IMG/VR virus record: IMGVR_UViG_3300030450_001534
Location: 1 to 33,360 of that record
Length of the DNA: 33,360 nucleotides
Reading direction: 5' to 3' (one strand)
Origin: a virus
In this document: positions 6,138 through 30,779 of the stretch, one piece after another
Numbering within the stretch: the first letter of the stretch is position 1
Layout of the letters: each line of letters begins with the position of its first letter
Notes under the pieces: model-generated
Told to the model about the DNA's origin: nothing
Database searches by the model: none
Seen by the model: the letters and a program-made list of their open reading frames with translations, nothing else
Translations under genes and position numbers: made by a program

Positions 6138-6643
6138 AAATTGCAGAACACCTGGACTGCCGCCCAGAACACGTTTCAAGGTTAAAAAGTCAAAACGTAC
6201 TGCCTTCCGCGCCTGGTAAGCCTATGGACTTAGACAGAGCAAGAGTGGCTTACATTAACTACTTGAGAAAGAAAGCAAGAATGACATCGAACACCGATGA
6301 TGGAACTATTACTGAACACAAGACGCGCTTAACGTCTGCCCAAGCTGATAAAGCAGAAATGGAAGTGCAAGTGTTGAGCAGTAGTTTAATAAAAGCTGAT
6401 GATGTTAGATCTACCTGGACTGAGTTTGTTTCTAACGTAAGGGCCAAGCTATTAAACCTACCTTCCAAATTAGCGCACCAGGTTATAGGTTTAGACCACT
6501 ACGCAGAAGCAGAAGAATTATTAACTAATGAGATATATGAAACACTTAACGAACTCTCCAAATCAGAGTACACAGAATCCGATGGAATGGGCCTGGACGG
6601 AGACAGCCAAAGCGTTCAAACCGCCAAAGAAGCTACTGGTTAG
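6122..6643 (+). CDS. Terminase small subunit (Nu1-like)
   Basis: A 173-residue protein that should recognise the packaging site and deliver DNA to the large subunit. The N-terminus (residues 1-45) is a winged-helix/MerR-like DNA-binding module, MATNIEIAEHLDCRPEHVSRLKSQNVLPSAP, as in Nu1/gpNu1 relatives. The middle (about 64-125), LTSAQADKAEMEVQVLSSSLIKADDV followed by a helical segment with LPSKLAHQVIG, is a pattern shared by Nu1-type small terminases. The C-terminal tail is acidic. It overlaps the large terminase gene in another frame. Confidence 0.85.
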   Translation: MATNIEIAEHLDCRPEHVSRLKSQNVLPSAPGKPMDLDRARVAYINYLRKKARMTSNTDDGTITEHKTRLTSAQADKAEMEVQVLSSSLIKADDVRSTWTEFVSNVRAKLLNLPSKLAHQVIGLDHYAEAEELLTNEIYETLNELSKSEYTESDGMGLDGDSQSVQTAKEATG

Positions 6644-9058: not shown

Positions 9059-10543
9059 ATGCCCTGGTACAAAAGATTGTTTGGTGGACGTAAGAGAGCA
9101 AGACCTTTAAACCTGCGAAGCTACGCAGGTGCTAATAAAGGTCGTTTATTTGCTGATTTTTTTAGTAATTCAAAGTCTGCTGATGCAGAACTGGCCCCTG
9201 CCCTACGCACATTAAGGGATAGATCCAGGGAATTGGCCAGAAATGACTCTTATGTTAAACGCTATTTAGCGTTACTATCTGCCAATGTTATAGGCACAAA
9301 AGGAATTAGACTTTCTTGCAAGGCCAGAGATGATAACGGTCAGCTAGATTTAGTAGGCAATCAGATCATAGAGCGCGAGTTTGCCAGGTGGTGTAAGAAA
9401 GAAAATTGCACCGTAACAGGTAAATTAAGTTTTATTGATGCACAAAAGCTATTTGTTGAGACATTAGCCAGAGATGGGGAGTGTTTAGTCAAGCACGTCA
9501 AGACAAAAGACAATCCTTTTAATTATTCTATTCAATTTGTAGAAGCTGACCACTTAGATGAGGAATTAAGCAAAAAAGCAGAAGGTGATGCAAATATAAG
9601 AATGGGAGTTGAAACCAATGCCGTTGGAAGGCCATTGGCTTATCACTTATTCAAACAACACCCCTACGATGATCCAACTTACGCTACTTCAAACACAAAG
9701 CAGTACACAAGGATCCCTGCTAACGAAATGATCCATGCTTATATGCAAGAAAGACCAGAAATGACGCGTGGCGTACCCTGGACAGCCACAGCAATGGATA
9801 AAATACACACTTTAAATGGTTATAGGCAGGCAGAATTAACCGCTTCAAGGCTTGCAGCTTGCAAAATGGGGTTCTATACCTCTCCTGGTGGTGATGGTTA
9901 TTTGGGTGAAGACTACGAAGATACTTTCTCTCCTATCATGGAAGCCGAGCCTGGTACCTTTGAGCAGCTACCAAGCGGCATGGACTTTAAGAGTTTTGAG
10001 CCTAATCACCCTACATCTGCCTTTGATGCCTTTGAAAAAGCCATACTTAGGGGCATATCTAGTGGTTTAAATATCAGTTATCACTCACTAGCTAACGATT
10101 TAAGTTCAGTTAATTACAGTTCTATCCGCGCAGGCTCACTAGAAGACCGCGCACAGTTTGGAGTTATACAAGAATTTGTAATTGCACACTTTATAGAGCC
10201 AGTATTTAAAGAATGGTTAGAAATGGCCATGACTACGAATCAAATACCCCTTCCTATGACTAGATTTGATAAGTTTGCTGAATCAACTACGTTTATTCCT
10301 AGATCCTGGAGTTATGTAGATCCGCAGAAGGAAATACAGGCCAACATCCTGGGCCTAAAGTCTGGCCAGGTAACAATGAGCGATATTCAAGCCGCTTACG
10401 GCCGTGACGTAGAGGAATTGTTTGAACAGCACGACAGAGAGACAAAATTAGCAGAGCAATACGGCGTATCTACGGCATTTCAGCCGTTTGGAGCGCAAAC
10501 TAGCGCAGTTGAGCCAGAAATACAGGGCGCAGAAGATGAATAA
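9059..10543 (+). CDS. Portal protein (lambda gpB family)
   Basis: A 494-residue portal that forms the dodecameric DNA channel at one capsid vertex. The N-terminus MPWYKRLFGGRKRARPLNLRS, then LRTLRDRSRELARNDSYVKRYLALLSANVIGTKGIRL (about 47-85), is the typical opening of Phage_portal_2 proteins. The middle has DGECLVKHV and FVEADHLDEEL, and the conserved SSVNYSSIRAGSLEDR lies at about 355-370. Length agrees with the family. The ATG follows directly after the previous stop. The acidic C-terminus overlaps the next small gene by 8 bases. Confidence 0.93.
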   Translation: MPWYKRLFGGRKRARPLNLRSYAGANKGRLFADFFSNSKSADAELAPALRTLRDRSRELARNDSYVKRYLALLSANVIGTKGIRLSCKARDDNGQLDLVGNQIIEREFARWCKKENCTVTGKLSFIDAQKLFVETLARDGECLVKHVKTKDNPFNYSIQFVEADHLDEELSKKAEGDANIRMGVETNAVGRPLAYHLFKQHPYDDPTYATSNTKQYTRIPANEMIHAYMQERPEMTRGVPWTATAMDKIHTLNGYRQAELTASRLAACKMGFYTSPGGDGYLGEDYEDTFSPIMEAEPGTFEQLPSGMDFKSFEPNHPTSAFDAFEKAILRGISSGLNISYHSLANDLSSVNYSSIRAGSLEDRAQFGVIQEFVIAHFIEPVFKEWLEMAMTTNQIPLPMTRFDKFAESTTFIPRSWSYVDPQKEIQANILGLKSGQVTMSDIQAAYGRDVEELFEQHDRETKLAEQYGVSTAFQPFGAQTSAVEPEIQGAEDE

Positions 10544-10670
10544 GCAGTTGAGGTGGGATCATTTGTTACCAAATGATGAGCAAAATGTAGATGTTGGGCG
10601 CACTCTCAGACATCTTATTTTCGTAGGTCTAAGGGATTTTGCTGTTCTGCTAGGGGTTAGAAATGACTAA
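10536..10670 (+). CDS. 44-residue overlapping gene between portal and capsid genes
   Basis: A short frame of 44 codons beginning MNKQLRWDHLLPNDEQNVDVG. Its ATG lies in the last codons of the portal gene (8-base overlap, ATGAATAA) and its stop overlaps the start of the protease-capsid gene by 8 bases (ATGACTAA). This double overlap is a strong sign of a real translationally coupled gene. The C-terminal half, LRHLIFVGLRDFAVLLGV, is amphipathic or membrane-seeking. It is tempting to compare it with small head-assembly cofactors, but I do not recognise a family. Confidence 0.6.
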   Translation: MNKQLRWDHLLPNDEQNVDVGRTLRHLIFVGLRDFAVLLGVRND

Positions 10671-12702
10671 AAAAGGTTTTGAAGGTGATAAAACGCCATC
10701 AGAAAGGGAGCCTAACGGCTCAAATTTACAACTAAAATCCACGGAGAATAATATGGATGATGAAGTAGTAGAAAATTCCGAGGAAGAAGTAACTGAATCT
10801 GTTGAAGAAGAAGTTGTGGAAACCGAAGAAGAAGAAAATCGCAATTTTAGCGAAGAAACAAGCTACCGTTCTATAGATCTCTCAAGAGCCGAGTTCATAG
10901 ATGAGGACAAAAGAACTGTCCGCATCGCGCTTAGTTCAGAGGAGCCTGTGGAGCGTAGTTTTGGCATGGAAGTTTTAGACCATGCCCCTGAGTCAGTTGA
11001 TATGACTTGGGCAAGAAGCGGCAATATGCCTGTTTTACTTGACCATGATACGACAAGGCAAGTAGGCATAGTGCAGGATTTTAATTTAGACGGTGCTACC
11101 AATAGGACATTGGCAACGGTGCGCTTTGGAAGAAGCGAACTAGCACAAGAAACCTGGCAAGACGTATTAGACGGAATTAAAAGATCTGTCTCAGTAGGCT
11201 ACAGAATCAACTCTATGGTTAGAGATGAATCTTTAGAAGATACGACTTACAGAGCGAACTGGACTCCAATGGAAGCCAGTTTGGTCAGTTTACCTGCTGA
11301 CACTAATCCTATGGTTGGTGTAGCCAGATCAAAAGATAGCGCAGAGGTGGTAGAACGTGAAACCCCTGTTGAGATAAACAATTCTATTAAGGAAAAAACA
11401 ATGGAAGAAAATAAAACTCCTGAAGTTGATTTAGAAGCTGTTAGATCTGAAACCGCAGTAAGCGTTAGATCTGAAGTTGCTAAAGAAGCAAAGGAAATAC
11501 TTGCATTAGCTACAAAGCACAATAAACGTGATTTAGCTGATGTTTCTATAGCGGAAGGACATTCTTTAGAGCAATTTAGAGGGATCCTTCTTAATAACAT
11601 ATCCGATGAAAAGCCACTTGAAACACCAGTAGCAGAAGTTGGATTAAACGAGCAAGAAAGAGGTAGATACTCTTTCTTAAACGCAATAAGAGCAGCATCA
11701 AGCGGTGACTGGTCTAACGCAGGTCTTGAAAGAGAAATATCTGATGAGATAGCAAACAGATCTGGCAAATCAGCCAGAGGTTTCTATCTTCCTATGGATA
11801 TTGGATGGGGCCAACGTGACCAAACTGTTGGAACTAACTCAGCAGGTGGTTTCTTAAAAGGAACTGACCATCTAGCTAATGAGTTCATTGGTGAGGTTTA
11901 CGCCACATCAGTAGTTGCACAATTAGGCGGCAGAGTGATGAGTGGTTTACAAGGTGATATAGCGATTCCAAAGCTATCTGCATCTGTAACTAACACAGCC
12001 TTCGTCGCAGAGGGCTCAGCCCCAAGCGAAGGATCCGCGACTTTCAGTCAAGTCACAATGGCACCTAAGACTCTAGCTACTTATGTAGACTACACTAGAA
12101 AATTAGCACTTCAATCTGATCCGTCAGTTGAAGCAATCCTAAGAAATGACGTAGTGCAAACTATGGCTTCTAAGATTGACCAAGTTGCTATCAATGGTGG
12201 TGGTTCTAATGAGCCTTCTGGTATCTTACAAGAATCTGACACTCAGGTTGTTGCTATTGGTACAAACGGTGGTGCATTAACTTACGCCAAAGTTGTAGAC
12301 ATGGAAGCTGCTATTCAGAACGATAATGCGATGGGTAGCACTATCAACTTCATAACCACGCCTGGAGTCCAGGGTGCTATGAGACAGATACCTAGACAGA
12401 GTTCAGGTGTTGAAGGCAACTTCATCCTAAACGATAGCAACTCTATCTTAGGACACAGCGTTAATGTTTCAACTAACGTGCCTAAAACATTAACTAAAGG
12501 ATCAACTTCTGGATCTTGCCATGCTTTAATTCTTGGTGATTTCTCACAAGTTATGCTTGGTTTCTGGTCGGGCGTAGATGTAGTTGTGGACTCATCAACA
12601 TTAAGTACATCTGGCGGAACTAGAATCGCGTTCTTCCAAGACGTAGATGTTGCAGTAAGAATCCCTAACGCGTTCTGCGCGATTAAGGATATAACTGTCT
12701 AA
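10663..12702 (+). CDS. Prohead protease fused to HK97-fold major capsid protein
   Basis: A single 679-residue frame carrying two functions that are usually separate. Residues 1-65 are an acidic low-complexity leader. Residues about 68-225 are an S78/HK97-type prohead protease: the catalytic histidine is likely H128 in LLDHD and the nucleophile S177 in KRSVSVGYR. A coiled/helical segment (about 247-330) resembles the delta/scaffold domain of HK97-type capsid proteins. Residues about 345-679 form the HK97 capsid fold (TVGTNSAGGFLKGTDHLANEF near the start, then EGSAPSEGSATFSQVT, and FQDVDVAVRIPNAFCAI at the end). A second start at 11401, in frame with a good ribosome-binding site, could also make the capsid part alone (433 residues). 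The stop is followed by a strong hairpin terminator. Confidence 0.9.
   Translation: MTKKGFEGDKTPSEREPNGSNLQLKSTENNMDDEVVENSEEEVTESVEEEVVETEEEENRNFSEETSYRSIDLSRAEFIDEDKRTVRIALSSEEPVERSFGMEVLDHAPESVDMTWARSGNMPVLLDHDTTRQVGIVQDFNLDGATNRTLATVRFGRSELAQETWQDVLDGIKRSVSVGYRINSMVRDESLEDTTYRANWTPMEASLVSLPADTNPMVGVARSKDSAEVVERETPVEINNSIKEKTMEENKTPEVDLEAVRSETAVSVRSEVAKEAKEILALATKHNKRDLADVSIAEGHSLEQFRGILLNNISDEKPLETPVAEVGLNEQERGRYSFLNAIRAASSGDWSNAGLEREISDEIANRSGKSARGFYLPMDIGWGQRDQTVGTNSAGGFLKGTDHLANEFIGEVYATSVVAQLGGRVMSGLQGDIAIPKLSASVTNTAFVAEGSAPSEGSATFSQVTMAPKTLATYVDYTRKLALQSDPSVEAILRNDVVQTMASKIDQVAINGGGSNEPSGILQESDTQVVAIGTNGGALTYAKVVDMEAAIQNDNAMGSTINFITTPGVQGAMRQIPRQSSGVEGNFILNDSNSILGHSVNVSTNVPKTLTKGSTSGSCHALILGDFSQVMLGFWSGVDVVVDSSTLSTSGGTRIAFFQDVDVAVRIPNAFCAIKDITV
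11389..11403 (+). promoter_or_regulatory. Internal ribosome-binding site and start for stand-alone capsid protein
   Basis: AAGGA (11389-11393) lies 7 bases before an in-frame ATG at 11401 (MEENKTPEVD), at the protease/capsid boundary. Translation from here would give a 433-residue delta-domain plus capsid protein, close to the usual size of HK97-type precursors. It offers a way to make many capsid subunits per protease-capsid fusion. Confidence 0.6.
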
Positions 12703-14580: not shown

Positions 14581-14723
14581 GAGCTGATGCGGATTTATTC
14601 ACGCAATACGCATTAGCAGACAGACTACATAAGACTCTTGATGAGTTAAGCGTGATAACGGTTGACGAGTTTGTTGGTTGGTTAGCTTATATAAAAATAT
14701 TAGAGAGTAAGAAAAGTGGATAA
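14245..14723 (+). CDS. Tail assembly chaperone, -1 frameshift form (gpGT-like)
   Basis: If ribosomes slip back one base at A AAA AAA (14571-14577), reading continues from 14577 as IRADADLFTQYALADRLHKTL and goes on to TAA at 14721-14723, adding 48 residues for a 159-residue product. The extension ends with ITVDEFVGWLAYIKILESKK, which resembles T domains of gpGT proteins (short helix, then WxxYxx). The extension has no start codon or ribosome-binding site of its own, and it fills the otherwise unexplained gap before the tape measure gene, overlapping that gene by 8 bases. Confidence 0.82.
14571..14617 (+). other. Programmed -1 ribosomal frameshift signal
   Basis: The slippery heptamer A AAA AAA (14571-14577) is in the correct phase relative to the upstream frame and directly before its stop codon. 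A 5-base spacer leads to a stem: GCTGATGCG (14583-14591) pairs with CGCATTAGC (14609-14617), nine pairs with one G-U, loop of 17. Slippery site, spacer and stem together are the standard -1 frameshift design. Confidence 0.82.
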
Positions 14724-16383
14724 GTTTAAGATGATAATTGCTGCTAAAGATCAGTTTAGCAGTAAATTTAAACTCGCCACTAGCATGGTGAGCAAACTAG
14801 GCGGAGCAGCCAAGAGCGTTGCCAAAGTAGTAACTGGTCTAATGGTGGCTGTCACAGCAGCAGCCGCAGCTTTTGTTGCCCTGGGCAAGAAAGCCTTTGA
14901 TGCCCTAGACGATGTAGGCAAGACGGCAGACCGAACAGGTATTGCTGCCGAAAAAATACAAGCATTACGATTAGCCGCAGTAGAAAGTGGCGCGTCAGTT
15001 GAAGATCTTAATAAAGGCCTAGAAAAGTTTGCCAAAAACATTGGTGACGTAGTTGTAAAAGGCACAGGTGAAGCCACATACGCCCTGGATAGGATGGGCA
15101 TACAACTAAGAAACAATAGTGGCCATTTAAAAACTAACGATGAGCTGCTAAAAGAAGTAGTAGAAGGTATAGGTAAACTAGGCCAAGAATCAGAAAGAGC
15201 ATCTATTCTACAGTCCATGTTTGGTAGAGCAGGTATCAAAATGAATCAGGTCTTTGGAGAAGGTGCAGAAGCCTTTGATGCCTGGATTCGAAAAGCAGAT
15301 GAAATGGGTTTTGTTGTAAGTGGCAAAGCCGTAAAGGCCGTTGAAAGTTTTAATGATCGTTTTTCAGAATTACAATTTATAGCAAGCGGTCTAGTTAATC
15401 AGACCTTTGCTGCCCTATCCCCTATGCTTGATAATTTGATTACCAACTTTAGAGATTGGGTAATTGAAATAAACAAAACAGAAGGCGGTCTTGAATCTAT
15501 AGGCAAGAGTATAGCAGGCGGTTTTGTAGAAGGAGCCGCTAAAACTATAGAAGTGTTGGGTGGTGTAATTCAGTTCTTCAAAGAAGTGCAAATAGAAATG
15601 CAGGCTGTAGCTGCAAGATGGGAAGCATTGAATGACTGGAATGTGATAGATGGTTGGAAACAATTAGGAAAAATAAATGAGCAGCTAAAAATAGATTTAG
15701 CAAACATGGAAGACTTTGAGAAGAAGTATAAAAATATAGCAGATAGTTTAAGGAAATTATTTTCTGATCCTGGCACAGAAGGCGAAGGTGGTCTGAATGA
15801 CGAAGTAGAAGATCTTGCAAACAACCTTTCCACAGCAGCAGAATCACTAGAAAGATTTGGTAATGGATTCGATCAAGTCTTTAACAACGGCAAAAATAAA
15901 TTTGAAGACATGGAGAAGTTAGGGGAGAAGGTAGGAAAAACTTTAGAAGATGGGTTGGTTAATGCCTTTATGAATGTTCAAACAGGCGCAGAAGGTCTTA
16001 AAGATGTGATGGATAATATCTTGAAGCAGATAATAGCAGAATTAATTAGAGTTTTTATAGTACAAAGAGCCGTGGGTGCTATTGGTACCTTCTTTGGCTT
16101 TCCAGGCAGAGCATCAGGTGGGCCAGTATCAGCAGGCAGAACTTATCTAGTAGGAGAAAAAGGGCCAGAATTATTTACACCAGGCCAAAGTGGTGGGATT
16201 ACGCCTAACCATCAACTGGCAGCAGTAGGTGGTGGTGAAACTAACATAAACATAACTTATGACATTAAAGCATTTGATGCTAAAGACGCTACGGCAGCTA
16301 TAGCTGAACAAGCACCTACTATTGTGGGTATCGTAGAACAATCATTTAGAAAACGCGGCAGAAGGGGGCCATTAGGAGCATGA
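14716..16383 (+). CDS. Tail tape measure protein (lambda gpH type)
   Basis: A 555-residue protein that sets tail length and passes into the host at DNA entry. It starts with GTG. After an N-terminal helix (SKFKLATSMVSKLGGAAKSV) comes a hydrophobic segment (about 38-60, VVTGLMVAVTAAAAAFVALG). Next is the conserved block FDALDDVGKTADRTGIAAEKIQALRLAAVESGASVEDLN, found in many tape measure proteins. The centre is helical. The C-terminus has RASGGPVSAGRTYLVGEKGPELFTPGQSGGI, a typical tape-measure ending. At 555 residues a tail of roughly 80-90 nm would be expected by the usual 1.5 angstrom per residue rule (inference). Confidence 0.9.
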   Translation: MDKFKMIIAAKDQFSSKFKLATSMVSKLGGAAKSVAKVVTGLMVAVTAAAAAFVALGKKAFDALDDVGKTADRTGIAAEKIQALRLAAVESGASVEDLNKGLEKFAKNIGDVVVKGTGEATYALDRMGIQLRNNSGHLKTNDELLKEVVEGIGKLGQESERASILQSMFGRAGIKMNQVFGEGAEAFDAWIRKADEMGFVVSGKAVKAVESFNDRFSELQFIASGLVNQTFAALSPMLDNLITNFRDWVIEINKTEGGLESIGKSIAGGFVEGAAKTIEVLGGVIQFFKEVQIEMQAVAARWEALNDWNVIDGWKQLGKINEQLKIDLANMEDFEKKYKNIADSLRKLFSDPGTEGEGGLNDEVEDLANNLSTAAESLERFGNGFDQVFNNGKNKFEDMEKLGEKVGKTLEDGLVNAFMNVQTGAEGLKDVMDNILKQIIAELIRVFIVQRAVGAIGTFFGFPGRASGGPVSAGRTYLVGEKGPELFTPGQSGGITPNHQLAAVGGGETNINITYDIKAFDAKDATAAIAEQAPTIVGIVEQSFRKRGRRGPLGA

Positions 16384-18762: not shown

Positions 18763-19167
18763 ATGAAGGATCAAGAAACTATAAATTTTGTAGAAAAAGA
18801 AAAGTATAAACCTTTCTCCTGGGGGGTTAATGATTGCCACACCTTAGTTTTGAAGTATTTAGACGAAGTATGGGGCAAAGACGTACACAAAGAAGTGTTT
18901 AAGAAATACAACACAAAGAAAGAAGCTGTAAGTTATAGGAAAGAATACCCAGAATCGCTAAGCGATGGAATTATTAAAGCAGGAGCCATAAAAATACCAC
19001 CTAAGCTGGCCAGAATGGGAGATCTGCTTATTGTGGATCATAAGCTGTTTCAGTTGGCCCATATTTGCTTGGGATCCCAGATAGTTTCTGTGTTTGAAGG
19101 AAGTTGTACGACTATATTCAAAATAGTTGATTTTACATTATTTGATTGGGCCTTGAGGATAGAGTAA
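18763..19167 (+). CDS. DUF6950/NlpC-P60-like tail-tip peptidase (gpK position)
   Basis: A 134-residue protein between the gpL- and gpJ-like genes, where lambda has gpK. The motif KPFSWGVNDCHTLVLKYLDEVWG places a cysteine (about C27) at the start of a helix, as in NlpC/P60 and DUF6950 proteins, and a possible catalytic histidine follows in FQLAHICLGSQ (about H104). GDLLIVD precedes it, also typical. Such proteins are thought to cut or loosen peptidoglycan during entry or to shape the tip. The start follows the upstream stop by 2 bases and the end overlaps the next start (TAATG). Confidence 0.7.
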   Translation: MKDQETINFVEKEKYKPFSWGVNDCHTLVLKYLDEVWGKDVHKEVFKKYNTKKEAVSYRKEYPESLSDGIIKAGAIKIPPKLARMGDLLIVDHKLFQLAHICLGSQIVSVFEGSCTTIFKIVDFTLFDWALRIE

Positions 19168-22100
19168 TGCCAGGAGCAGTATCAGCAGTTAAAGCAGTAA
19201 TAGATTTCTTTTACGTTGTATTTTGGGCAGCAGGTGTAGGCAATACTGCTGCTACAGTTCTGAGTTATATAGCGGCAGGTGCAACCTTTAATGCCATAGG
19301 TGGGGCATTAAACAGCTTATATAAAGTTCCACAAATAGGTCTTGCCCAACAAGGGGCAACGGTATTAAGTAATTCAAGATCCAGTTCCGCGCCTTTGCCT
19401 GTTATATATGGAGTAAGGCGTGTAGGTGGTGTTCAAGTATTTATTGGAACGTCAGATGGTTACACTATGGATGGAGCAGTAACCGATGAGTTTCCTAATG
19501 AATACCTAAATATGGTTATTGCTTTATGCGAAGGCCCTATAGGCGCAGTAGAAAAAGTTTATGCTAATAATGTTGAAATATGGCCAGTACAAGACGAAAG
19601 ATTTCAAGGCAAAGTATTTTGCAATGTTCATTTAGGAGAAACAGGGCAAACTGTAGATAAGGATTTAAAGGCAATTTCAGATAGTAAAACTAAGCCATTT
19701 GAATGGGGGGATGAACACAGACTAAGAGGGATTGCTTATCTTTATATAAGGTTAGAAGCTAATGAAGATGTATGGAAATCAGGACTGCCGACTATAAATG
19801 CTGATGTAAAAGGAAGAATGGTAGAAGATACCAGAAATCAATACGCAGGCACCGCTTATTCTATAGATAGATATTCTAATAACCCTGCCCTTTGCATCAG
19901 GGATTATTTGATGAACTCAACATACGGCAGAGGAATACCAGGAAGCCAAATAAGTGATAGCGCATTTGAAGCGGCGGCTAATTATTGTGATGAAGAAATA
20001 GACTTTGTTTTAGATGATGGTAATACAGTTAGACAAAAAAGATTCACTTTAAACGGAGTAGTGACTGTAGGTGAGTCAAGTTTAGATATTCTAAATAAAT
20101 TACTTAGTAGCTGTAGGGGGATGCTTGTTTATACAGGCGGTTTTTACAAATTAATTATTGATAAAGCTGAAAGTGCTTCATTAACATTTGATGAATCAAA
20201 TATTCTGCCCAATTTCAATATAACTCTACCAGGTAAAAACAGCTTAGCTAACAGAGTTAGTGCTAACTATTTTAATCCTGATAGAGAATGGCAAGCTGAT
20301 TTTGAATACGTTGAAAGTGCAGCTTACAAGACTGCTGACAATGAAATGCTGCTAGAGAGAAAAATAGAATTGCCATTTACAGCAGATAGATTGATGGCTT
20401 TTTATATTGCCGAACAAACAATGAAACAGTCTAGGCAAGGACTTTTAATTGAATTTAATACAACGCAAGAGGGCCTACTAGCAGAGGTGGGAGATGTTAT
20501 ATACATTAAATTAGATGCGCCTGGTTGGACAAGCCTTAATAGTGGATCTGGTAAGTTGTTTAGAGTTATACAAGTTACCTTAGAAGCAAACGATGAAGTT
20601 GCTATTGTGGCTATGGAATATGATGCAAATGTCTATGTTCACGGTACCGCTAGTGCAATAGATACTGCCCCTAATACAAACCTTCCTTCTTTATCTACGG
20701 TTAATGCACCAACATCTATAACTGCAACAGAAACGCTATTGTTTAATGATCCAAAAATTACCAACAGAATTACTTTAGCTTGGGCATCTTCTCCATCTTC
20801 TTATTTAGAAAAATATGAAGTGGCTTACATTGCAGGAACAAGCGGTAAAACATATACACAAGCAGGTACGGTAACAGGAAAGCAATTTACAATAGATAAT
20901 TTAGATCCAGGGGTTTATCAATTTGCTGTTAGATCTGTTAATACTGCAAATTTTAAATCCGATTATGTAAGCGTACTCTTAAAGGTTAATGGAACAAATA
21001 CCTTACCTGCTGTTAATCCGCCTGGAATAACTGGTGTAACTGAATCACTTGTATCAACTACTTTAGGATCAGGAATAAAAGCAAAAGCAGTTTTATCATG
21101 GACAGCTATAGCAAACAGCGATTGGGAAGCATTAGGAATAAATATAGAAAGTTATGAGGTTGAATATAAATTAACTAGCGAATCTACTAATTTTGAAAGA
21201 CTAGGATCAGCAACAGGTACTTTCTTTGAGTTTTTTGATATAGCACCTGGTAATTATGATTTTAGAGTAAGAGCAGTTAATGACGCAGGAATAAAATCAG
21301 CTTATTCTGCTATTGCGGCAGAAATTACAGGACTAAGCGCGGCCCCTGCTAATGTGGCTAGTTTCTATCTAAGAGTTGAAAGCACACAGGCAAATCTTTC
21401 CTGGACACCATCACCAGATATAGATGTTAAGGTTGGTGGTACGTTTGAGATAAGACATTCTGTGGCAACAAGTGGTGCTACTTGGGGTACGGCTATAAAA
21501 ATAGGTTCAGATGTTGCAGGATCTTCTAATTCAACTTCAATGCCTTTATTAGTTGGTACTTATTTAATAAAAGCCGTTGATTCTACAGGAAATAAATCAG
21601 CAGCAGCCAAATCAATAGTCAATACCGTATCACCTTCTTTGTTTGATAAAAGAACAGCAGCAACGGTTACAGACACTTCTTTTGCAGGTACAAAAACAAA
21701 TATGGTTATAGATTCTGATACAGGTTATCTGAAATTTGAAGCCGATACGCCCTGGGATAGCGTTGCAGGTGATATTGATACTTGGGGCCTAATAGATTCA
21801 GTTGGTGGCGCAGATCTATCTGGATCTTATGAATTTACAAACAAAATAGATCTAGGTGCTGTAGCTAATGCCACCCTATCAAGCAGTATAAGTTTCAATG
21901 CAGTTTCTACCTCTGATATATGGGATAACTATTTGCAGAATATAGACTCTTGGGAAGCTGTTGATGCCAATACTTTTGATGATCTCAATGCCACTATGTT
22001 CATCAGCAGCACTAATGACGATCCTGCAAGTGGGGGAGCAACCTGGTCAGACTATCAAGAATTTACTATTGGTAACTATTACGGCAGAGGGTTTAAATTT

Positions 22101-22403
22101 AAAGTTGAATGCACTTCTGGTGATGCAACTCACCAAATAAACATAACGCAATTAGTGGCAAAAGCAGAAGTTTATTACCGTTTTGAATCAGAAACAGGAA
22201 CTACTAATGCAGGTGGTACGGCTTTTACTTATGGCACGGCCTTTTTATCTACACCACAGATAGCTATAACGGCCAATGACATGGCTACAGGAGATTATTA
22301 CGCCATCACCAGTTCATCAGCTACAGGTTTTACATTACGTTTTTATAATTCTAGCGGTACTGGCATATCCAGAACTGCTTACTATTTAGCAAGGGGATAT
22401 TGA
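19167..22403 (+). CDS. Tail tip/host specificity protein (gpJ-like)
   Basis: About 1078 residues from the ATG at 19167, which overlaps the previous stop as TAATG; a longer frame from 19146 is unlikely. It should form the tail tip and central fibre. The N-terminus is hydrophobic (FFYVVFWAAGVGNTAATVLSYIAAG). The hub core contains SSSAPLPVIYGVRRVGGVQVF and YLNMVIALCEGPIG, then RNQYAGTAYSIDRYSNNPALCIRDYL and LLSSCRGMLVYTGGFYKLI, all usual for gpJ/TipJ-type proteins. Fibronectin type III-like domains follow (about 530-620 and 640-740, each ending PGxYxFxVRxVN). The C-terminal 300 residues are beta-rich and may contact the receptor. Its stop codon lies inside the next promoter element. Confidence 0.88.
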   Translation: MPGAVSAVKAVIDFFYVVFWAAGVGNTAATVLSYIAAGATFNAIGGALNSLYKVPQIGLAQQGATVLSNSRSSSAPLPVIYGVRRVGGVQVFIGTSDGYTMDGAVTDEFPNEYLNMVIALCEGPIGAVEKVYANNVEIWPVQDERFQGKVFCNVHLGETGQTVDKDLKAISDSKTKPFEWGDEHRLRGIAYLYIRLEANEDVWKSGLPTINADVKGRMVEDTRNQYAGTAYSIDRYSNNPALCIRDYLMNSTYGRGIPGSQISDSAFEAAANYCDEEIDFVLDDGNTVRQKRFTLNGVVTVGESSLDILNKLLSSCRGMLVYTGGFYKLIIDKAESASLTFDESNILPNFNITLPGKNSLANRVSANYFNPDREWQADFEYVESAAYKTADNEMLLERKIELPFTADRLMAFYIAEQTMKQSRQGLLIEFNTTQEGLLAEVGDVIYIKLDAPGWTSLNSGSGKLFRVIQVTLEANDEVAIVAMEYDANVYVHGTASAIDTAPNTNLPSLSTVNAPTSITATETLLFNDPKITNRITLAWASSPSSYLEKYEVAYIAGTSGKTYTQAGTVTGKQFTIDNLDPGVYQFAVRSVNTANFKSDYVSVLLKVNGTNTLPAVNPPGITGVTESLVSTTLGSGIKAKAVLSWTAIANSDWEALGINIESYEVEYKLTSESTNFERLGSATGTFFEFFDIAPGNYDFRVRAVNDAGIKSAYSAIAAEITGLSAAPANVASFYLRVESTQANLSWTPSPDIDVKVGGTFEIRHSVATSGATWGTAIKIGSDVAGSSNSTSMPLLVGTYLIKAVDSTGNKSAAAKSIVNTVSPSLFDKRTAATVTDTSFAGTKTNMVIDSDTGYLKFEADTPWDSVAGDIDTWGLIDSVGGADLSGSYEFTNKIDLGAVANATLSSSISFNAVSTSDIWDNYLQNIDSWEAVDANTFDDLNATMFISSTNDDPASGGATWSDYQEFTIGNYYGRGFKFKVECTSGDATHQINITQLVAKAEVYYRFESETGTTNAGGTAFTYGTAFLSTPQIAITANDMATGDYYAITSSSATGFTLRFYNSSGTGISRTAYYLARGY

Positions 22404-22467: not shown

Positions 22468-24552
22468 ATGGCACAACATGATTATGTAATAGCAAATGCG
22501 TCTGGTGCTACAGTTAGAGCAGACATTAACAATATGGCTTTGGCCATTTCTTCAAACAATAGCGGATCTTCCGCACCATCCACTACTTATGCTTATGAAT
22601 TTTGGATAGACACAGGCAATAGTTTATTAAAACTAAGAAACGCGGCCAATAATGCCTGGATCACCATGCCTTTATCTGTCACGGCAGATAATACGGTTGA
22701 TGTAAACGGCGGCACAATAGACGGCACTAATATAGGTGCTAGTTCAGCAGGAACAGGTGCTTTCACTACTTTAGCTGCTTCTGGTGCTACAGATCTTAAC
22801 TCTACATTGGCCGTGTCAGGAAATGTATCTTTAGACGGATCCGCTAATGAATTAAGGTTTTATGAAGGTGCTAACTACGTTGGTTTTGAAGCACCTGCCC
22901 TAACAGGCGATCAAATATGGGTGTTGCCTGCCGCAGACGGTTCTGCAAGTCAGGTACTTACCACTAATGGATCTGGAACTTTATCCTGGGCAACGGCATC
23001 TAGTGGGCCTACATTTAAAACATTTGGCACTTCTTCAATTATGGTTGGAGATGATGCCACAGGAACTATAAGTGCTGCAAATTACAATACTGGTTTAGGG
23101 GTAGATATTTTTGCAGCGTTGACTTCTGGCGATGCAAATACAGTTTTGGGATTCAGCGCAGGTAAGACTTTAAATACTGGCCAAAGGAACGTGATAATCG
23201 GCTATAACGCCATGGATGCAGCAAATACTGGATCCGATAGCGTAATGATTGGCTATGAAGCAGGCGGCGCGGTAGTGGATGCGGTGGAGAACGTAGCTGT
23301 CGGATATTACGCAGGTGCGGCCGACATGGGCGATTACAATACCTTTGTAGGTGCAAGCGCAGGACAGAATGTTACAGGCCAGAAAAATACTTTTTTTGGA
23401 GCCAGATCAGGCGATGCTTGTTCGTCAGGAAATAATAATATCGGAATTGGTTATGATGCTCTTGGTGCTTTAACGACATCAGAAGATTGTCTGGCCATTG
23501 GTACAAATGCAGGCAAATCTACTAATTCTCCTAGAAATATGTATATTGGTTATGATGCAGGTGCCGCACAGAGCGGATCGAGCGACAATATAGCTATTGG
23601 TTATAGTGCTTTAGTACGACAAACAACAGGCGCAAACGGAAATATTGCTATAGGTAACTACGCAGGTAGAGCTGTTGTAGATTCTGCTAGTACATCGCAA
23701 CTCTTAGCTATTGGGCATTATGTTGCTTCCGATAATTCTGCCGCATTAGCAGGTTATCAAAATTGTTTTGTAGGTTACAACATAGCATCAGCGTCAGGTT
23801 TAGCAGGAGCGTTCCAGAATACGGCTTTAGGTATGAACGCTATGTCAGATTTAACGACGGGCGATTACAACTGTGGAATCGGAAATCATGCCCTACACGC
23901 TATAACTTCTGGAATTTGGAATACTGGAATTGGAATGGATTCTTTAAACGCTATTACAACTGGCGATTATAATACTTGCGTGGGTAAAGGTTCAGGAGAT
24001 TCATTGGGTACAAGTTCGCACAATAATGTCTGTATTGGTTCTAATGCCAAAGGATCATCAAGTTTTAATTATCATCTTATTGTTATTGGATCAGGCATAT
24101 CAGCAGCAAATGTAGACAATCGTTTTAGTTTTGGTAAATCAAGCAATATTGTTCACAATGACTTTGGAACTAATGCTTCTTGGACTCGTACTTCGGATGA
24201 AAGGAAAAAGAAAAATATTAAAGAAGATACTCTAGGATTAGATTTTATTAATGATCTAAAAACTGTCACGTTTGAATGGAAACCTAACTGTGAATTTCCA
24301 GAACACTTTAAAGACTATAAAGAAAATCCAGAAGATAACATGATGGAAACAGATAAAGTTTTACACGGAATGATTGCGCAAGATGTAAAAGCAGCACTTG
24401 ATAAAGCAGGTGTAGATACATTTGGTGGTTGGACAGTAGATCCAGACGACGGTTGCCAAGAACTATCACAAGAAATGTTTGTGCATCCATTAATACGAGC
24501 AGTACAAGAATTATCTGCAAAAGTTGAAGAATTAGAAAATAAACTTAATTAA
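22468..24552 (+). CDS. Tail fibre with C-terminal S74 chaperone domain
   Basis: A 694-residue receptor-binding fibre. The N-terminal 60 residues (IANASGATVRADINNMALAISSNNSG) are a common phage attachment module. Residues about 200-570 carry a dozen or so short repeats of the form N..IGY.A.....G, similar to trimeric beta-helical head repeats. The C-terminal 119 residues are an intramolecular chaperone (peptidase S74/endosialidase type): SDERKKKNIKE starts the domain with the self-cleavage serine at about 576, HGMIAQDVKAAL follows, and a coiled coil VQELSAKVEELENKLN ends it. The chaperone trims itself off after trimer folding. Expression is likely from its own promoter copy. Confidence 0.88.
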   Translation: MAQHDYVIANASGATVRADINNMALAISSNNSGSSAPSTTYAYEFWIDTGNSLLKLRNAANNAWITMPLSVTADNTVDVNGGTIDGTNIGASSAGTGAFTTLAASGATDLNSTLAVSGNVSLDGSANELRFYEGANYVGFEAPALTGDQIWVLPAADGSASQVLTTNGSGTLSWATASSGPTFKTFGTSSIMVGDDATGTISAANYNTGLGVDIFAALTSGDANTVLGFSAGKTLNTGQRNVIIGYNAMDAANTGSDSVMIGYEAGGAVVDAVENVAVGYYAGAADMGDYNTFVGASAGQNVTGQKNTFFGARSGDACSSGNNNIGIGYDALGALTTSEDCLAIGTNAGKSTNSPRNMYIGYDAGAAQSGSSDNIAIGYSALVRQTTGANGNIAIGNYAGRAVVDSASTSQLLAIGHYVASDNSAALAGYQNCFVGYNIASASGLAGAFQNTALGMNAMSDLTTGDYNCGIGNHALHAITSGIWNTGIGMDSLNAITTGDYNTCVGKGSGDSLGTSSHNNVCIGSNAKGSSSFNYHLIVIGSGISAANVDNRFSFGKSSNIVHNDFGTNASWTRTSDERKKKNIKEDTLGLDFINDLKTVTFEWKPNCEFPEHFKDYKENPEDNMMETDKVLHGMIAQDVKAALDKAGVDTFGGWTVDPDDGCQELSQEMFVHPLIRAVQELSAKVEELENKLN

Positions 24553-25265: not shown

Positions 25266-25431
25266 AACAATAACAACACTAGAAGCACATCAGCGTGAGA
25301 ACGCTATTCGCTTCCAGTACATAGAAGACAGGTTAGACGAAGGATCTGCTAAGTTTAAAAGATTAGAAACCATAATATGGGGGATCTACCCTGTATTAAT
25401 TACCGCCCTTATAGCTACCAGGTATATGTAA
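25249..25431 (+). CDS. Small coiled-coil plus transmembrane protein (XhlA-like layout)
   Basis: A 60-residue protein: residues 1-40 are helical and charged (ETITTLEAHQRENAIRFQYIEDRLDEG), and residues 42-58 (LETIIWGIYPVLITALIATRY) are a single membrane segment. The layout matches XhlA-type holin accessory proteins and many small phage membrane proteins with a cytosolic coiled coil. No ribosome-binding site is obvious, and the 17-base overlap with the upstream gene suggests translational coupling. The end overlaps the nuclease start (TAATG). Confidence 0.65.
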   Translation: MESQAETITTLEAHQRENAIRFQYIEDRLDEGSAKFKRLETIIWGIYPVLITALIATRYM

Positions 25432-25859
25432 TGTATGAATACGCTTGTGAGGTTGAAAGAATCATTGATGGGGATAGTTTGGTGGGCGTGTTATGCCTTG
25501 GTTTCGATGTTAGTTTTAAGTCTAGTATTCGCCTATATGGTGTTGATACTCCTGAGTCACGCACTCGCAACAGGGATGAGAAGGCTAGAGGACTACTGGC
25601 TAAAGATTTCTTAAAAGACTCAATAGAAAACGGCAAGAAGATTGTCATAAAGACAGAGTTAAAAGATTCCAGGGGCAAGTTTGGTAGAGTCCTGGGAACA
25701 ATTTGGGTGGACGGAGTAAATATCAATCAAGCGTTAATAGATAATCACTTGGCGGTTGCTTACTTTGGCCAATCAAAAAAAGACGTTGAAGACGAACACA
25801 TGGTAAATCGTCAGAAACTAATAGATCTAAATATATTTAAACCAGAGGTGCAAACATGA
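25431..25859 (+). CDS. Thermonuclease-family (SNase-like) nuclease
   Basis: A 142-residue protein starting at the TAATG overlap (25431), not at the upstream in-frame ATG. It matches the staphylococcal nuclease fold: CEVERIIDGDSLVGVL carries the first calcium-site aspartate, IRLYGVDTPESR gives the active-site Arg, second Asp and Glu, and SRGKFGRVLGTIWVDG gives the second Arg. All key residues are present, so it should be active on DNA or RNA. No secretion signal is evident. Located between membrane genes in the late region, it could degrade host or competitor DNA, or act during entry if packaged; its role here is not established. Confidence 0.85.
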   Translation: MYEYACEVERIIDGDSLVGVLCLGFDVSFKSSIRLYGVDTPESRTRNRDEKARGLLAKDFLKDSIENGKKIVIKTELKDSRGKFGRVLGTIWVDGVNINQALIDNHLAVAYFGQSKKDVEDEHMVNRQKLIDLNIFKPEVQT

Positions 25860-26047: not shown

Positions 26048-27169
26048 ATGAATAAAAACATTCATCAATTAATGTTTTTTGGACTTATATCTTTTAGTGT
26101 TGGTCTATACGCTGATGCACCAGACCAAACTGGAACGGGTTGTGCTAATGGTACGCAGTATTGTGAAAACAATAACTTAAATACAACCAATTCCACCACG
26201 ACTAATAATACCAACACCAATTCCAACACCAACGTCAACACTAATTCTAATACCAACGTCAGCACTTCTACGGCTACTAACACTAATAATTCAACTACAA
26301 ATGCAACTAATTCTAATACCAACGTCAGCACTTCTACGGCAAATAATAATAACGTAAACACTACGACAGCGACTTCAACAGCTACGACCAATAATACGAA
26401 CCAAAATAATAATGTTAATACCTCTACATCAACATCTGATTCCACAGTAAATTCAACCGTTAATCAGACTGTTAATAACAACAGTACTTCTGAAAATACC
26501 AACACGAATATAAATCAATCGAACAGCGTTAGTAACAGCACAAACGTAAACAAAAACGAAAGTAAGTCTGAATCAAACGTACAAACGAACAACGTAAACA
26601 ACAATAACACTAAATCAGACAATACAAATAGGAACATTAATCAGAGTAAATCAGAACAGACTATTAACCAAAATATTAAAACCGAAGCGCCACCTGCTAG
26701 TGCAATAGCACCAAGCATTATGTCTTATTCACAAGATCTTTGTACGGTTGGAAGATCAGGGGCGTTTCAGGGCCAGGTGTTTGGTATATCTGGCGGAAGA
26801 ACAGTTACAGATGAAAATTGCGAAAGATTAAAATTAAGTAAATATATCTATGATATGGGTATGAAGGTTGCAGCCGTTTCCGTGCTTTGCCAAGATGCCA
26901 GGGTGTTCCAAGCAATGGAAATGGCAGGCACTCCATGTCCTTACATGGGTAAAATAGGCAAAGACGCTTCCGAAGGTTGGAAAGCTAATCCTTCACAAAG
27001 ACCTGATGCTAAAGAATACAAAGCTAATTGGATAGCTAACTGTAAAAAAGGATTAAATCCCAACGACACAGGGTATAACAAAGATATTGTAAGCGGTGTA
27101 AGAAAGGTTTTGACTAAGAAAACTAAAACCACCAAACAATGTAAAAAAGAATGGAACAATGCCACATAA
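26048..27169 (+). CDS. Exported Asn/Thr/Ser-rich repeat protein
   Basis: A protein of about 373 residues with three parts. Residues 1-22 are a signal peptide (LMFFGLISFSVGLYA, likely cleavage after LYA). Residues about 42-205 are almost entirely Asn, Thr, Ser and Val, in patterns such as NTNSNTNVNTNSNTNVSTST, later with Lys, Glu and Gln. Residues about 218-373 are a compact domain, IMSYSQDLCTVGRSGAFQGQVFGISGGRTVTDENCERLKLSKYIYDMG..., with six cysteines (from about C231 to C364) that could pair in the periplasm. I have a vague memory of related C-terminal domains in marine phage genomes, but no known function. Possible roles are an envelope-modifying, exclusion or lysis-related protein, or a virion surface component. 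Confidence 0.75.
   Translation: MNKNIHQLMFFGLISFSVGLYADAPDQTGTGCANGTQYCENNNLNTTNSTTTNNTNTNSNTNVNTNSNTNVSTSTATNTNNSTTNATNSNTNVSTSTANNNNVNTTTATSTATTNNTNQNNNVNTSTSTSDSTVNSTVNQTVNNNSTSENTNTNINQSNSVSNSTNVNKNESKSESNVQTNNVNNNNTKSDNTNRNINQSKSEQTINQNIKTEAPPASAIAPSIMSYSQDLCTVGRSGAFQGQVFGISGGRTVTDENCERLKLSKYIYDMGMKVAAVSVLCQDARVFQAMEMAGTPCPYMGKIGKDASEGWKANPSQRPDAKEYKANWIANCKKGLNPNDTGYNKDIVSGVRKVLTKKTKTTKQCKKEWNNAT
26240..26340 (+). repeat. In-frame 66-base duplication in the Asn-rich gene
   Basis: A 35-base sequence (starting ACTAATTCTAATACCAACG) occurs exactly at 26240-26274 and 26306-26340, offset by 66 bases or 22 codons. It keeps the reading frame and encodes a TNSNTNVSTSTA unit twice. Exact identity over 35 bases, with more degenerate repeats around it, indicates recent expansion by slippage or unequal recombination. 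Confidence 0.85.
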
Positions 27170-29471
27170 AGATGAATGGCAAACTTGGTGTTTTGTAGGC
27201 AGTTTAATTTTATCAAGCATTTTTGCATTAGGCCTTAACAAACTACAAGCTGAATACATATATGAAGCCAATCAATCTTTATATCATTTACAAACTAACG
27301 CTAATAATTATGAAGGAGAATTAGCTTATTCAATTTCAGATGATGGGGTTTCTCCTGCTATAGATCTGTCTTTTAATTTTACTTTCTACGGAGAAACATT
27401 TAATCAGGCCAGAATAGCAACCAATGGCTGTTTGCATTTCAAAACAAGCGGATCTTATTGTAACGACTATACCCCAGATCCATTAACAGGACAGCATACT
27501 TATACTTTATATCCTTTTTGGACAGACTTAATTAGAGACAACAACTCAAGAATAAAGTCTTGGGGTGATTCTTCTAAAATGATTTTTGGTTGGTATGATT
27601 TAAGGGAATATAACAGAAGCAATACAGACAATAGTTTTGAAATAATCCTTTGGCCAAATAATACATTTGAATATAGATACGGTGGGTTAAATGTAATCAA
27701 CCATGATGTATTAATTGGAGAAATTGGAAGCGGTACATCACAAAGTTACACCTATTTATACCATGACGAATGTAGTACAGGCACAACTAATTCTAGTTCT
27801 TGTGTGAACACTAATTGGAATAACACTTCATCTAATACTGCGCTAGAAGATGGTGGCTCTTTGTATGGAGTAGGAACAGGTAATTCTATAGATTGTAGTG
27901 ATCCATTAAACAATCAATCTTGTTCTGGTTACGCAGCAGCTTACCTAACGCAGCAATGTAATATTACACAGCTTTACAGCGAATCCTGTCCTTCTTATTG
28001 GGAAGCCTATGATGATCAACAATGTAGTGAAGACTCGCAATACGCGCCCTTCTGTGCAGGCTATACGCAAGAAGCGTCAGTAGCTTATTATTTTGAAGAA
28101 GAATTTGATTATGGTTATCAAGATGATATGCAAGGTGGCAGTTTTGGTTTTGATGATAACTTTGGTTTTGAAGAAGATGTTTTTACTTACATAGAAGAAT
28201 TTGATTTTGAATCTAATGAAGAAGTATTTGTTTTTGAATACGAAGATGTATTTGTTAATGGTGGCTTTGAAGAACCTTTTTCTGATGCAATAGATCCATT
28301 GCCAGATTTTAACGTGATTGATGATGTTTATGAAATACAACTATTTGATGAGCCTGAGTTTTTGTTGTCTTATGATGGGTTTGAAAGAAACGATGCAATT
28401 ACAATTAACCCAAGCGAAGAACTTATAGAAGAATTTGTATTACAAGAAACCGTTTTGATAGAAGATTTTGAACAAATTAATACATTTGTAGAATTTGAAA
28501 CTATTGAAGAATTAGATGAATGGCTTGAAGAAGAATTATCAGAGGAAACAGAAGATCCCCAAGAAGAAATAGAAGAACTTTACGCCGAAGAAGAAATATT
28601 TGAAGAAGAAGCTGTAGAAGAAATATTTGAAGAAATAGAAGAACAGTTTGCAGAAGAAGAAAGAGTTGCTTTAGAAGAAAGAGAAGATGAAATTCTTGAA
28701 GAAGAAACAGAGTTAATTGCCGAAGAAAGAACATCAAGAAGTGGAATAACATCAACTATGTTAAATGTTGTTGGACAATCCATAAGAACGGCATCTAACA
28801 GTAATTCTTCTAGCAGTTCTGCTACAGGATATTCAAGCGGAAACAACAACAGTAGTGGTACTGGCGGTATGAATAGTGGTGCTGTAAGTTCTTCTGTTAC
28901 AGGTAGTGGAATAAGTACAAGCAGTTCACCCAGTATGTCTGACCAAATAGCTTCTGCTAATGTGCAAACAAACACTATTCTTTCTTTAAGCCAAGACACA
29001 AGCAGTATGTCAGGTGGTAGTTCACAAACAGTCAGTAGTGTTTCTACAGTTATAACACCCATGCCAACATTTGATAATAACCCACAAGTAGTTATGGCAG
29101 ATGTCCAGGTACAAAATATGCAAGGTGAAATAAATACAGCAGTATCAGGAGTAATGACAGCTAGTGAAGCTGACCAAATAGCTGACGAAATTATTGCTAA
29201 TAATATAAAAGAACAACAAGAACAGGCAGAAACAGAACAACAAGAAACAGGACAATACGCAGACCAGTCTACATTAATAGCTTATTTAGGATATGTACCG
29301 TCTTTTGAGGTATATAAAACTTATGAAATACCTAAACAAGAAACCTGGTATCAGTCTAAAGATATTTATAGCGATATAAGCATAAGTGATAATGTTAGTG
29401 GCTTTTATGATTTAGCAAGTAACAATATAAATTTGATGAATAATATGATTAAACAACAACCTAATTTATAG
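27159..29471 (+). CDS. Large exported protein: NIDO-like domain, Cys repeats, acidic region
   Basis: A 770-residue protein. Residues 1-31 read as a signal peptide (FVGSLILSSIFALGL, then LQA). About 50-205 resemble a nidogen-like/extracellular beta domain (DLSFNFTFYGETFNQARIATNGCLHF, later YPFWTDLI). About 246-305 hold repeats of roughly 22 residues with paired cysteines (C246/C255, C267/C277, C289/C299) and a GY..AY..QQC motif. About 308-460 are acidic and rich in Phe and Tyr. About 455-525 are mostly glutamate. About 543-635 are Ser/Gly-rich. The last 130 residues are helical, then aromatic. It overlaps the previous exported gene by 11 bases. An envelope or cell-surface role is likely; the exact function is unknown. 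Confidence 0.75.
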   Translation: MPHKDEWQTWCFVGSLILSSIFALGLNKLQAEYIYEANQSLYHLQTNANNYEGELAYSISDDGVSPAIDLSFNFTFYGETFNQARIATNGCLHFKTSGSYCNDYTPDPLTGQHTYTLYPFWTDLIRDNNSRIKSWGDSSKMIFGWYDLREYNRSNTDNSFEIILWPNNTFEYRYGGLNVINHDVLIGEIGSGTSQSYTYLYHDECSTGTTNSSSCVNTNWNNTSSNTALEDGGSLYGVGTGNSIDCSDPLNNQSCSGYAAAYLTQQCNITQLYSESCPSYWEAYDDQQCSEDSQYAPFCAGYTQEASVAYYFEEEFDYGYQDDMQGGSFGFDDNFGFEEDVFTYIEEFDFESNEEVFVFEYEDVFVNGGFEEPFSDAIDPLPDFNVIDDVYEIQLFDEPEFLLSYDGFERNDAITINPSEELIEEFVLQETVLIEDFEQINTFVEFETIEELDEWLEEELSEETEDPQEEIEELYAEEEIFEEEAVEEIFEEIEEQFAEEERVALEEREDEILEEETELIAEERTSRSGITSTMLNVVGQSIRTASNSNSSSSSATGYSSGNNNSSGTGGMNSGAVSSSVTGSGISTSSSPSMSDQIASANVQTNTILSLSQDTSSMSGGSSQTVSSVSTVITPMPTFDNNPQVVMADVQVQNMQGEINTAVSGVMTASEADQIADEIIANNIKEQQEQAETEQQETGQYADQSTLIAYLGYVPSFEVYKTYEIPKQETWYQSKDIYSDISISDNVSGFYDLASNNINLMNNMIKQQPNL

Positions 29472-29878: not shown

Positions 29879-30352
29879 ATGAAAGAATTATTAAAAGGCG
29901 TTATTGGTGCTGTAGCACCAACAATAGGTACTGCCCTTGGTGGGCCAATGGGCAATATGGCAATGAATATGGTTTCTCAGGCGTTGGGATGCAAGAACAC
30001 ACCAAAAGATGTTGAAAAAGCTGTGCAGAACGCCACGCCTGAGCAGCTTGCAGATCTAAAAAAGATTGATAATGATTTTGAAATCAAGATGAAAGAATTA
30101 GACGTAGATCTATTTGCCCTGGAAACAGCAGACATACAAGGTGCTAGATCTATGTTTGCGAGAGATTGGACGGCTAGAATCATAGGTGTTGCTGTTATTG
30201 GTGGCTTCATGGGTTATATATTTCTAGTAACCATACAACCACCAGAACAAAATTCAGAAGCATTAATAAACCTAGTTCTAGGTTATCTAGGTGGCCTGGC
30301 TTCTGCCATCATATCTTTCTACTTTGGTGCATCGCACTCTAAAGATGATTAA
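29879..30352 (+). CDS. Holin, three-helix gene-transfer-agent type
   Basis: A 157-residue membrane protein that should set lysis timing. The N-terminus (GVIGAVAPTIGTALGGPMGNMAMNMVSQALG) is hydrophobic. A soluble middle (about 42-92) has TPEQLADLKKIDNDFEIKMKELDVDLFALETADIQGARSMFARDWTAR, the signature of GTA_holin_3TM proteins. Two membrane segments follow (IIGVAVIGGFMGYIFLVTI and LINLVLGYLGGLASAIISFYFG), then a short charged tail. There is no Shine-Dalgarno sequence and the promoter is immediately upstream, so the mRNA may be leaderless. It overlaps the endolysin gene by 8 bases. Confidence 0.9.
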   Translation: MKELLKGVIGAVAPTIGTALGGPMGNMAMNMVSQALGCKNTPKDVEKAVQNATPEQLADLKKIDNDFEIKMKELDVDLFALETADIQGARSMFARDWTARIIGVAVIGGFMGYIFLVTIQPPEQNSEALINLVLGYLGGLASAIISFYFGASHSKDD

Positions 30353-30779
30353 AGAATTAACTGAACACCTTATAGAATTTGAGGGGTTAAGGCTCAAGCC
30401 TTATCATTGCACGTCTGGCAAACTCACTATTGGGATAGGCCGAAACTTAGACGATAGAGGTATAAGCGAAGACGAAGCTATGGTTATGCTTAAAAACGAC
30501 ATAACTATAGTGCAAGAGGAATTACTGGCCAGATGGCCCTGGTTCGAGGATCTACCACCCAGAGCAAAGTTAGTGATGTATGACTTGGGATTTAATATGG
30601 GCGTTCCTGCTATATCTAACTTCCAGAATATGTTGAAAGATCTAGCGGATGAAAATTGGGAAGGTGCGGCCAAGAATCTACTAGACTCTAAGTACGCACA
30701 ACAGGTAGGAAGAAGGGCAATATATAACGCTCAACTGTTGGAAACAGCGAATGACCGTACATTGCCCTCTAAGGATTAA
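30345..30779 (+). CDS. Endolysin, T4-lysozyme-like (GH24) with E-C-T triad
   Basis: A 144-residue muramidase starting at the ATG that overlaps the holin stop (ATGATTAA). The active-site segment, EGLRLKPYHCTSGKLTIGIG, aligns with T4 lysozyme, but the catalytic aspartate (D20 in T4) is replaced by Cys: E-x8-C-x5-T. This version is common among phage GH24 enzymes, and a D20C change in T4 lysozyme is known to keep activity. The rest (GRNLDDRGIS, LGFNMGVPAISNFQNML, SKYAQQVGRRAIYNAQLL) is standard. No signal peptide is present, so export depends on the holin. Confidence 0.93.
   Translation: MIKELTEHLIEFEGLRLKPYHCTSGKLTIGIGRNLDDRGISEDEAMVMLKNDITIVQEELLARWPWFEDLPPRAKLVMYDLGFNMGVPAISNFQNMLKDLADENWEGAAKNLLDSKYAQQVGRRAIYNAQLLETANDRTLPSKD

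Follow-up and report, generated by a model that had tools for sequence, protein, structure and literature searches.

A three-gene phage cassette centred on an exported mosaic protein with exchangeable heads, with a possible role at the host envelope or the cell surface

Genes in the window

The analyzed stretch of DNA (the window) is a virus contig of 33,360 bases with a lambda-like siphophage late region, in which the following genes were recognized upstream of the locus of interest:

6528-8408: large terminase
9059-10543: portal
10663-12702: major head protein
14716-16383: tape measure
19146-22403: tail protein J
22468-24552: S74 tail spike (profile matches)
25377-25859: SNase (staphylococcal-nuclease-like)

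The locus itself comprises five genes:

26048..27169, plus strand: gene A (P0002), directly upstream of B
27159..29471, plus strand: gene B (P0001), exported modular protein of 770 amino acids
29481..29825, plus strand: gene C (P0004), coiled-coil protein with a single membrane helix at the N-terminus, ending in ...NPLAN
29879..30352, plus strand: phrog_1544 membrane protein, holin-like (PHROG match)
30291..30779, plus strand: lysozyme-type endolysin (PF00959, 2.5e-11; phrog_7)

The gene order is A-B-C, followed by the holin-like gene, the product of which is a putative holin although phrog_1544 itself has no assigned function, and the lysozyme gene. The open reading frames of A and B share 11 nucleotides; the coordinates and the overlap with the Asn-rich gene given for B in the preliminary description of this DNA were exact. 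Of 303 distinct A loci, 67 likewise have a SNase-like gene in the vicinity of the cassette.

Anatomy and export of protein B

Protein B is confirmed as a mosaic, apparently Sec-exported, of head, Cys-pair neck, acidic spacer, Ser-rich linker and conserved C-terminal domain:

27159..27251 (the part upstream of 27252), plus strand: signal peptide, residues 1-31 (sequence; heuristic)
27252..27878, plus strand: head, beta-sandwich, with a NIDO-like core at residues ~54-192 (27318-27734) (profile-profile comparison; model)
27879..28073, plus strand: neck, three 22-residue Cys-pair repeats (246-299) (sequence; copy number 0-7 in relatives)
28074..28733, plus strand: acidic, mostly disordered spacer, residues 306-525 (composition; AlphaFold)
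28734..29078, plus strand: Ser/Thr-rich linker, residues 526-640 (composition; AlphaFold)
29079..29468, plus strand: conserved C-terminal domain, residues 641-770 (common to B proteins with other heads)

The mosaic layout was thus as described before, except that the linker, the C-terminal domain and the constant partner C had been omitted.

Signal peptides were called by a simple rule (hydrophobic core plus cleavage site), which is a heuristic and not SignalP; by this rule, 95-97% of the A and B proteins (97% of the B family, 96% of the A genes) have a signal-peptide-like N-terminus compared with 29% of control ORFs, in agreement with the export originally proposed for B. The neck likewise bears out the claimed repeats of about 22 residues: its Cys pairs are located at residues 246/255, 267/277 and 289/299 (period 21-22), and random placement produced three such units in 0 of 20,000 cases for the whole protein and in 1 of 20,000 for eight Cys within residues 205-305. 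Nine of the ten Cys residues of mature B are invariant in 51 relatives, the tenth being kept at 90% or more; this conservation is consistent with an oxidising compartment and, hence, with export.

The spacer had been described as dominated by Glu, Phe and Tyr, which is correct for Glu and Phe (65 and 25 of 220 residues, next to 20 Asp) but not for Tyr, which is outside the six commonest residues. In the AlphaFold model, the head forms a beta-sandwich (pLDDT mostly 70-90) and the spacer is disordered (pLDDT mostly near 30); the sequence of the latter is poorly conserved among relatives. Its content of Asp plus Glu, usually 20-30% (quartiles of a wider set of 118 B proteins), drops below 10% in seven of the 118, where the spacer is instead rich in Pro/Gln/Ser/Thr or in Cys repeats. 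As acidity is dispensable in these seven and the stretch is disordered and poorly conserved, it is better explained as a spacer than as a binder of cations; the suggested binding of divalent cations or basic envelope components was not upheld. A function as cation chelator is also countered by the Mg2+ of seawater, which amounts to tens of millimolar.

The search of the full-length B model against the PDB yielded no significant match with Foldseek, and the best VIA hits (Z 5.6) were beta-sandwiches of sugar enzymes; the missing match of this full-length model is not evidence of a new fold. The only BFVD match with an E value under 0.001 was an uncharacterised phage protein.

Relationship of the B head to NIDO domains

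HMMER gave no PF06119 hit for P0001, and none of the 51 relatives scored over the Pfam cut-off (hits below it in 3 of 51, best E 0.021). Profile-profile comparison with bacterial NIDO domains (23 domains excised by motif window from proteins over the PF06119 cut-off) resulted in a match of 99.0% (E 6.7e-18, 135 columns), with the reversed and column-shuffled controls remaining under 1%. By this comparison, the head core (residues ~54-192) is homologous to NIDO, and the earlier assignment of a nidogen-like domain is retained; a report of NIDO domains in phages was not found in the open-access literature. A profile match placing P0001 in a known tail-fibre or adhesin family, which the preliminary description had named as contradicting its reading, was absent in PHROG, Pfam and NCBIfam. 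CPW_WPC (PF09717) scored below its curated cut-off (18.3 bits versus 23; TIGR01492: 14.5 versus 35.6).

Genes A and C and the cassette

Protein A possesses a signal peptide, an Asn/Thr/Ser-rich low-complexity stretch, a conserved four-Cys domain (~26729-27019, residues 228-324) and a basic tail (pI about 10), and matches phrog_20531, PHROGs covering A only. The model of its domain is small and helical (confidence near 90 in the core); comparison with the PDB by Foldseek and VIA revealed nothing convincing, which again does not indicate a new fold. Among 197 C proteins, 187 contain NPL within the last nine residues; the charges flanking the C helix do not fix its membrane topology.

In 123 distinct relatives, A is located directly upstream of B in 87 of the 88 with room for it, and C is the next gene downstream in 101 of 105, with the genes overlapping or about 10 nt apart. 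Furthermore, C is found near 176 of 185 distinct A genes of several kinds (those followed by 4.5 kb or more of sequence). Judged by gene order, A, B and C are a hitherto unnamed three-gene cassette with B as its middle member, and the Asn-rich protein, already put forward as partner of B, is its constant neighbour and putative partner. One relative (L060:8136-8498) deviates from all others by a C match on the minus strand right after B, which may be an artefact of the search with a low-complexity coiled coil. In some pelagiphage-like loci (L215:2359-2739 and similar, L161-L199), a second small coiled-coil membrane protein of MSKKPLN... type is encoded between A and B.

Exchange of B heads

The C-terminal domains of the 118 wider B proteins are homologous to that of the window (98.9%, E 1.2e-17, controls nil). 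Their N-terminal parts, in contrast, fall into two single-linkage groups of 78 and 40 members, of which only the former matches NIDO and the head of the window; this group is not purely NIDO, as two of its members (L409 and L394) carry a different head. In 88 pairs, the last 80 residues are at least 50% identical and similarity of the heads is undetectable. The comparison of L405 with L409 illustrates a swap in place: head and spacer of B differ, whereas the neighbours are homologous (A at 57%, B over its final 185 residues at 72%, C at 73%, the next gene at 44%, the GH19 endolysin at 83%). According to these alignments, B heads are exchanged in place (NIDO versus another head) with the C-terminal domain and the partners being constant. 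The neck varies as well: the number of Cys-pair repeats ranges from 0 to 7 across the family, the highest seen being the seven (C-x8-11-C-xGYxxA) of the L420 protein. In one relative, the head gives a CBM_4_9 match below threshold.

Distribution

The first scan of IMG/VR yielded 368 confirmed relatives of B, and two other A types had at least 597 and at least 585 confirmed relatives among the 600 matches listed for each; genes related to A are very abundant in this database. Sequence searches with P0001 retrieved none from INPHARED (50,697 phage records) and, as a one-sequence search, none from bacterial genomes; the wider B types found in INPHARED nothing except each query's own record, and PADLOC gave no match. 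The four-Cys domain of A, by comparison, matches proteins of the pelagiphages HTVC115P, HTVC033P, HTVC023P, HTVC202P, Baldr and Mosig as well as of the roseophages CRP-207 and CRP-810. In the examined pelagiphages, the gene after A encodes a Glu-rich protein, in most of them exported, whose head is of a different kind. A small membrane protein with NPLAN or a similar C-terminus comes next in HTVC033P, HTVC023P, HTVC202P, Mosig and an uncultured Mediterranean phage. The B proteins of HTVC023P and HTVC033P have the same layout as that of the window. Direct homology of the C-termini of window and pelagiphage B is not claimed (5%), but the 68% obtained through an intermediate set is suggestive of homology.

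An HTVC115P-like cassette on an alphaproteobacterial assembly contig, apparently from a single-cell genome (AG-910-K03), represents a possible host link. Mosig (MT647606.1) encodes A-B-C and has no detectable CsgG, in contrast to published pelagimyophages with csgGF, for example HTVC008M; the cassette and the curli genes might be alternative exported systems.

Siphoviruses, podoviruses and a myovirus infecting marine and freshwater bacteria share this conserved unit, which occurs in many phages of oceans and lakes and, with hundreds to thousands of metagenome copies, constitutes a sizeable piece of viral dark matter. Papers describing A-B-C were not found in the open-access literature, so that a description elsewhere is possible; no curated family names the cassette in Pfam, NCBIfam or PADLOC, and PHROGs holds A only, unnamed.

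Neighbourhood of lysis genes

For 100 of the 185 cassettes, an endolysin (three types were detectable) is encoded within 4.5 kb, compared with 31% of control ORFs from the same loci; this control is conservative, as the loci were chosen around the cassette. The succession of A-B-C and endolysin is seen repeatedly, the enzyme being a lysozyme, an M15 or a GH19 type. In pelagiphage HTVC023P an M15 peptidase directly follows C, in the roseophages CRP-207 and CRP-810 A is followed by another protein and then lysozyme, and in the freshwater phage ctXG6705 lysozyme is encoded three genes after B. In Mosig, a distance of about 24 kb separates the cassette from the GH108 enzyme annotated there, which counts against an obligate link to lysis; in HTVC202P it adjoins the terminase.

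Rz-like and o-spanin-like genes (phrog_739, phrog_812) adjoin the cassette in 33 of 185 loci, and no spanin gene was identified near that of the window. In L034:3416-3811 and L024:3317-3700, genes for a phrog_739 i-spanin-like protein and a phrog_812 o-spanin lipoprotein shortly follow the cassette, an arrangement that recurs in a subset of relatives.

Possible function of the cassette

To the established anatomy, homologies, gene linkage and head swapping of the cassette, a functional reading can be added. The proposal that A-B-C is an undescribed phage system, i.e. a Sec-exported, membrane-anchored complex with swapped heads that acts on the envelope or cell surface, is considered to have not quite an even chance of being correct. 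With regard to the process served, the location beside cell-bursting genes suggests a role in host exit, and the tentatively preferred, though still doubtful, reading is a complex that spans the envelope late in infection and assists lysis or release. A and B would enter the periplasm through Sec, and C would be anchored in the inner membrane, its coiled coil reaching into the periplasm. Protein B would offer an exchangeable ligand-binding head on a disulphide-rich neck and a long flexible spacer, and its constant C-terminal domain would dock on A and/or C. At a late stage of infection, the complex would tie the inner membrane to a ligand of the outer envelope or wall and might, in this way, help cell opening or virion release beside holin, endolysin and, where present, spanins.

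The exchangeable heads, however, would suit a variable ligand on the surface better than a constant one in the periplasm, which speaks against this reading. Next in rank, albeit as an unlikely explanation, is superinfection exclusion or receptor masking: A and B would be displayed or released by the infected cell, the head would cover a surface glycan or protein used by the phage or its competitors, and progeny would also be kept from sticking to debris. Swappable heads on a constant dock would suit such a function, and both the bacterial NIDO-type heads and the CBM_4_9 head below threshold resemble recognition domains; yet display on intact cells is left unexplained by A and B, in which neither an outer-membrane transporter nor a lipobox was seen. 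In addition, the cassette is placed in the late region, and genes for exclusion tend to be small and to be expressed early or in lysogeny. Rather improbable is an aggregation or capture fibre, in which the Asn-rich, low-complexity A would form, together with B, an adhesive matrix gathering neighbouring hosts. Protein A is indeed Asn/Thr/Ser-rich and apparently secreted, and curli operons with a proposed host-gathering role have been reported from pelagiphages (PMC9599517, PMC9004378, PMC7029224); on the other hand, no outer-membrane exporter was seen, and CsgG was absent from all 20 cassette-bearing records searched, including Mosig, in a search that was positive in four control genomes.

Even less probable is a virion role of B as a minor protein of the tail or of head fibres, with an N-terminus that would not be a true export signal. 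The B gene of the window does come after the genes for the tail, at a distance of a few genes from the S74 tail spike, and modular binding heads resemble those of tail fibres; this is opposed by the signal-peptide-like N-termini on A and B across highly diverged families, the conserved Cys pairs, the membrane partner C and the missing match to a PHROG tail family. The lowest probability is assigned to a divergent spanin system with C as inner-membrane and A/B as outer part. One helix plus coiled coil is the plan of an i-spanin, and the lysis-gene neighbourhood would be appropriate; where Rz/Rz1-like genes co-occur, however, the cassette cannot simply be the spanin, which weakened the first idea of spanin replacement. 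In addition, no lipobox was detected by eye in A or B of the window, and B is far larger than any o-spanin known to us.

Action at lysis, as in the preferred reading, would extend the holin-endolysin-spanin scheme by a further layer; action at the surface would make the cassette a modular exclusion or adhesion system. The question is testable, as cultured pelagiphages and roseophages bear the cassette or close counterparts.

Comparison with known systems

Among described families, phrog_20531 holds homologues of A without a match to B or C, and NIDO (PF06119) shares a homologous core with the B head; B differs from the latter in its score below the cut-off and as a phage protein with spacer and new C-terminal domain. 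The Rz/Rz1 spanins resemble the cassette in the single membrane helix and coiled coil seen in C and in the neighbourhood of lysis genes, but A and B contain no lipoprotein partner, and some phages have spanin-like genes adjoining the cassette. The published concept that comes closest to such an exported multi-gene module is pelagiphage curli with type VIII secretion (PMC9599517), likewise a possibly adhesive module across distant marine phages, from which the cassette differs by its other proteins and the lack of CsgG. Modular tail fibres and bacterial stalked adhesins share with B the swappable head, the flexible stalk and a constant attachment part; in B, however, the constant part is C-terminal and is combined with an export signal and two constant partner genes.
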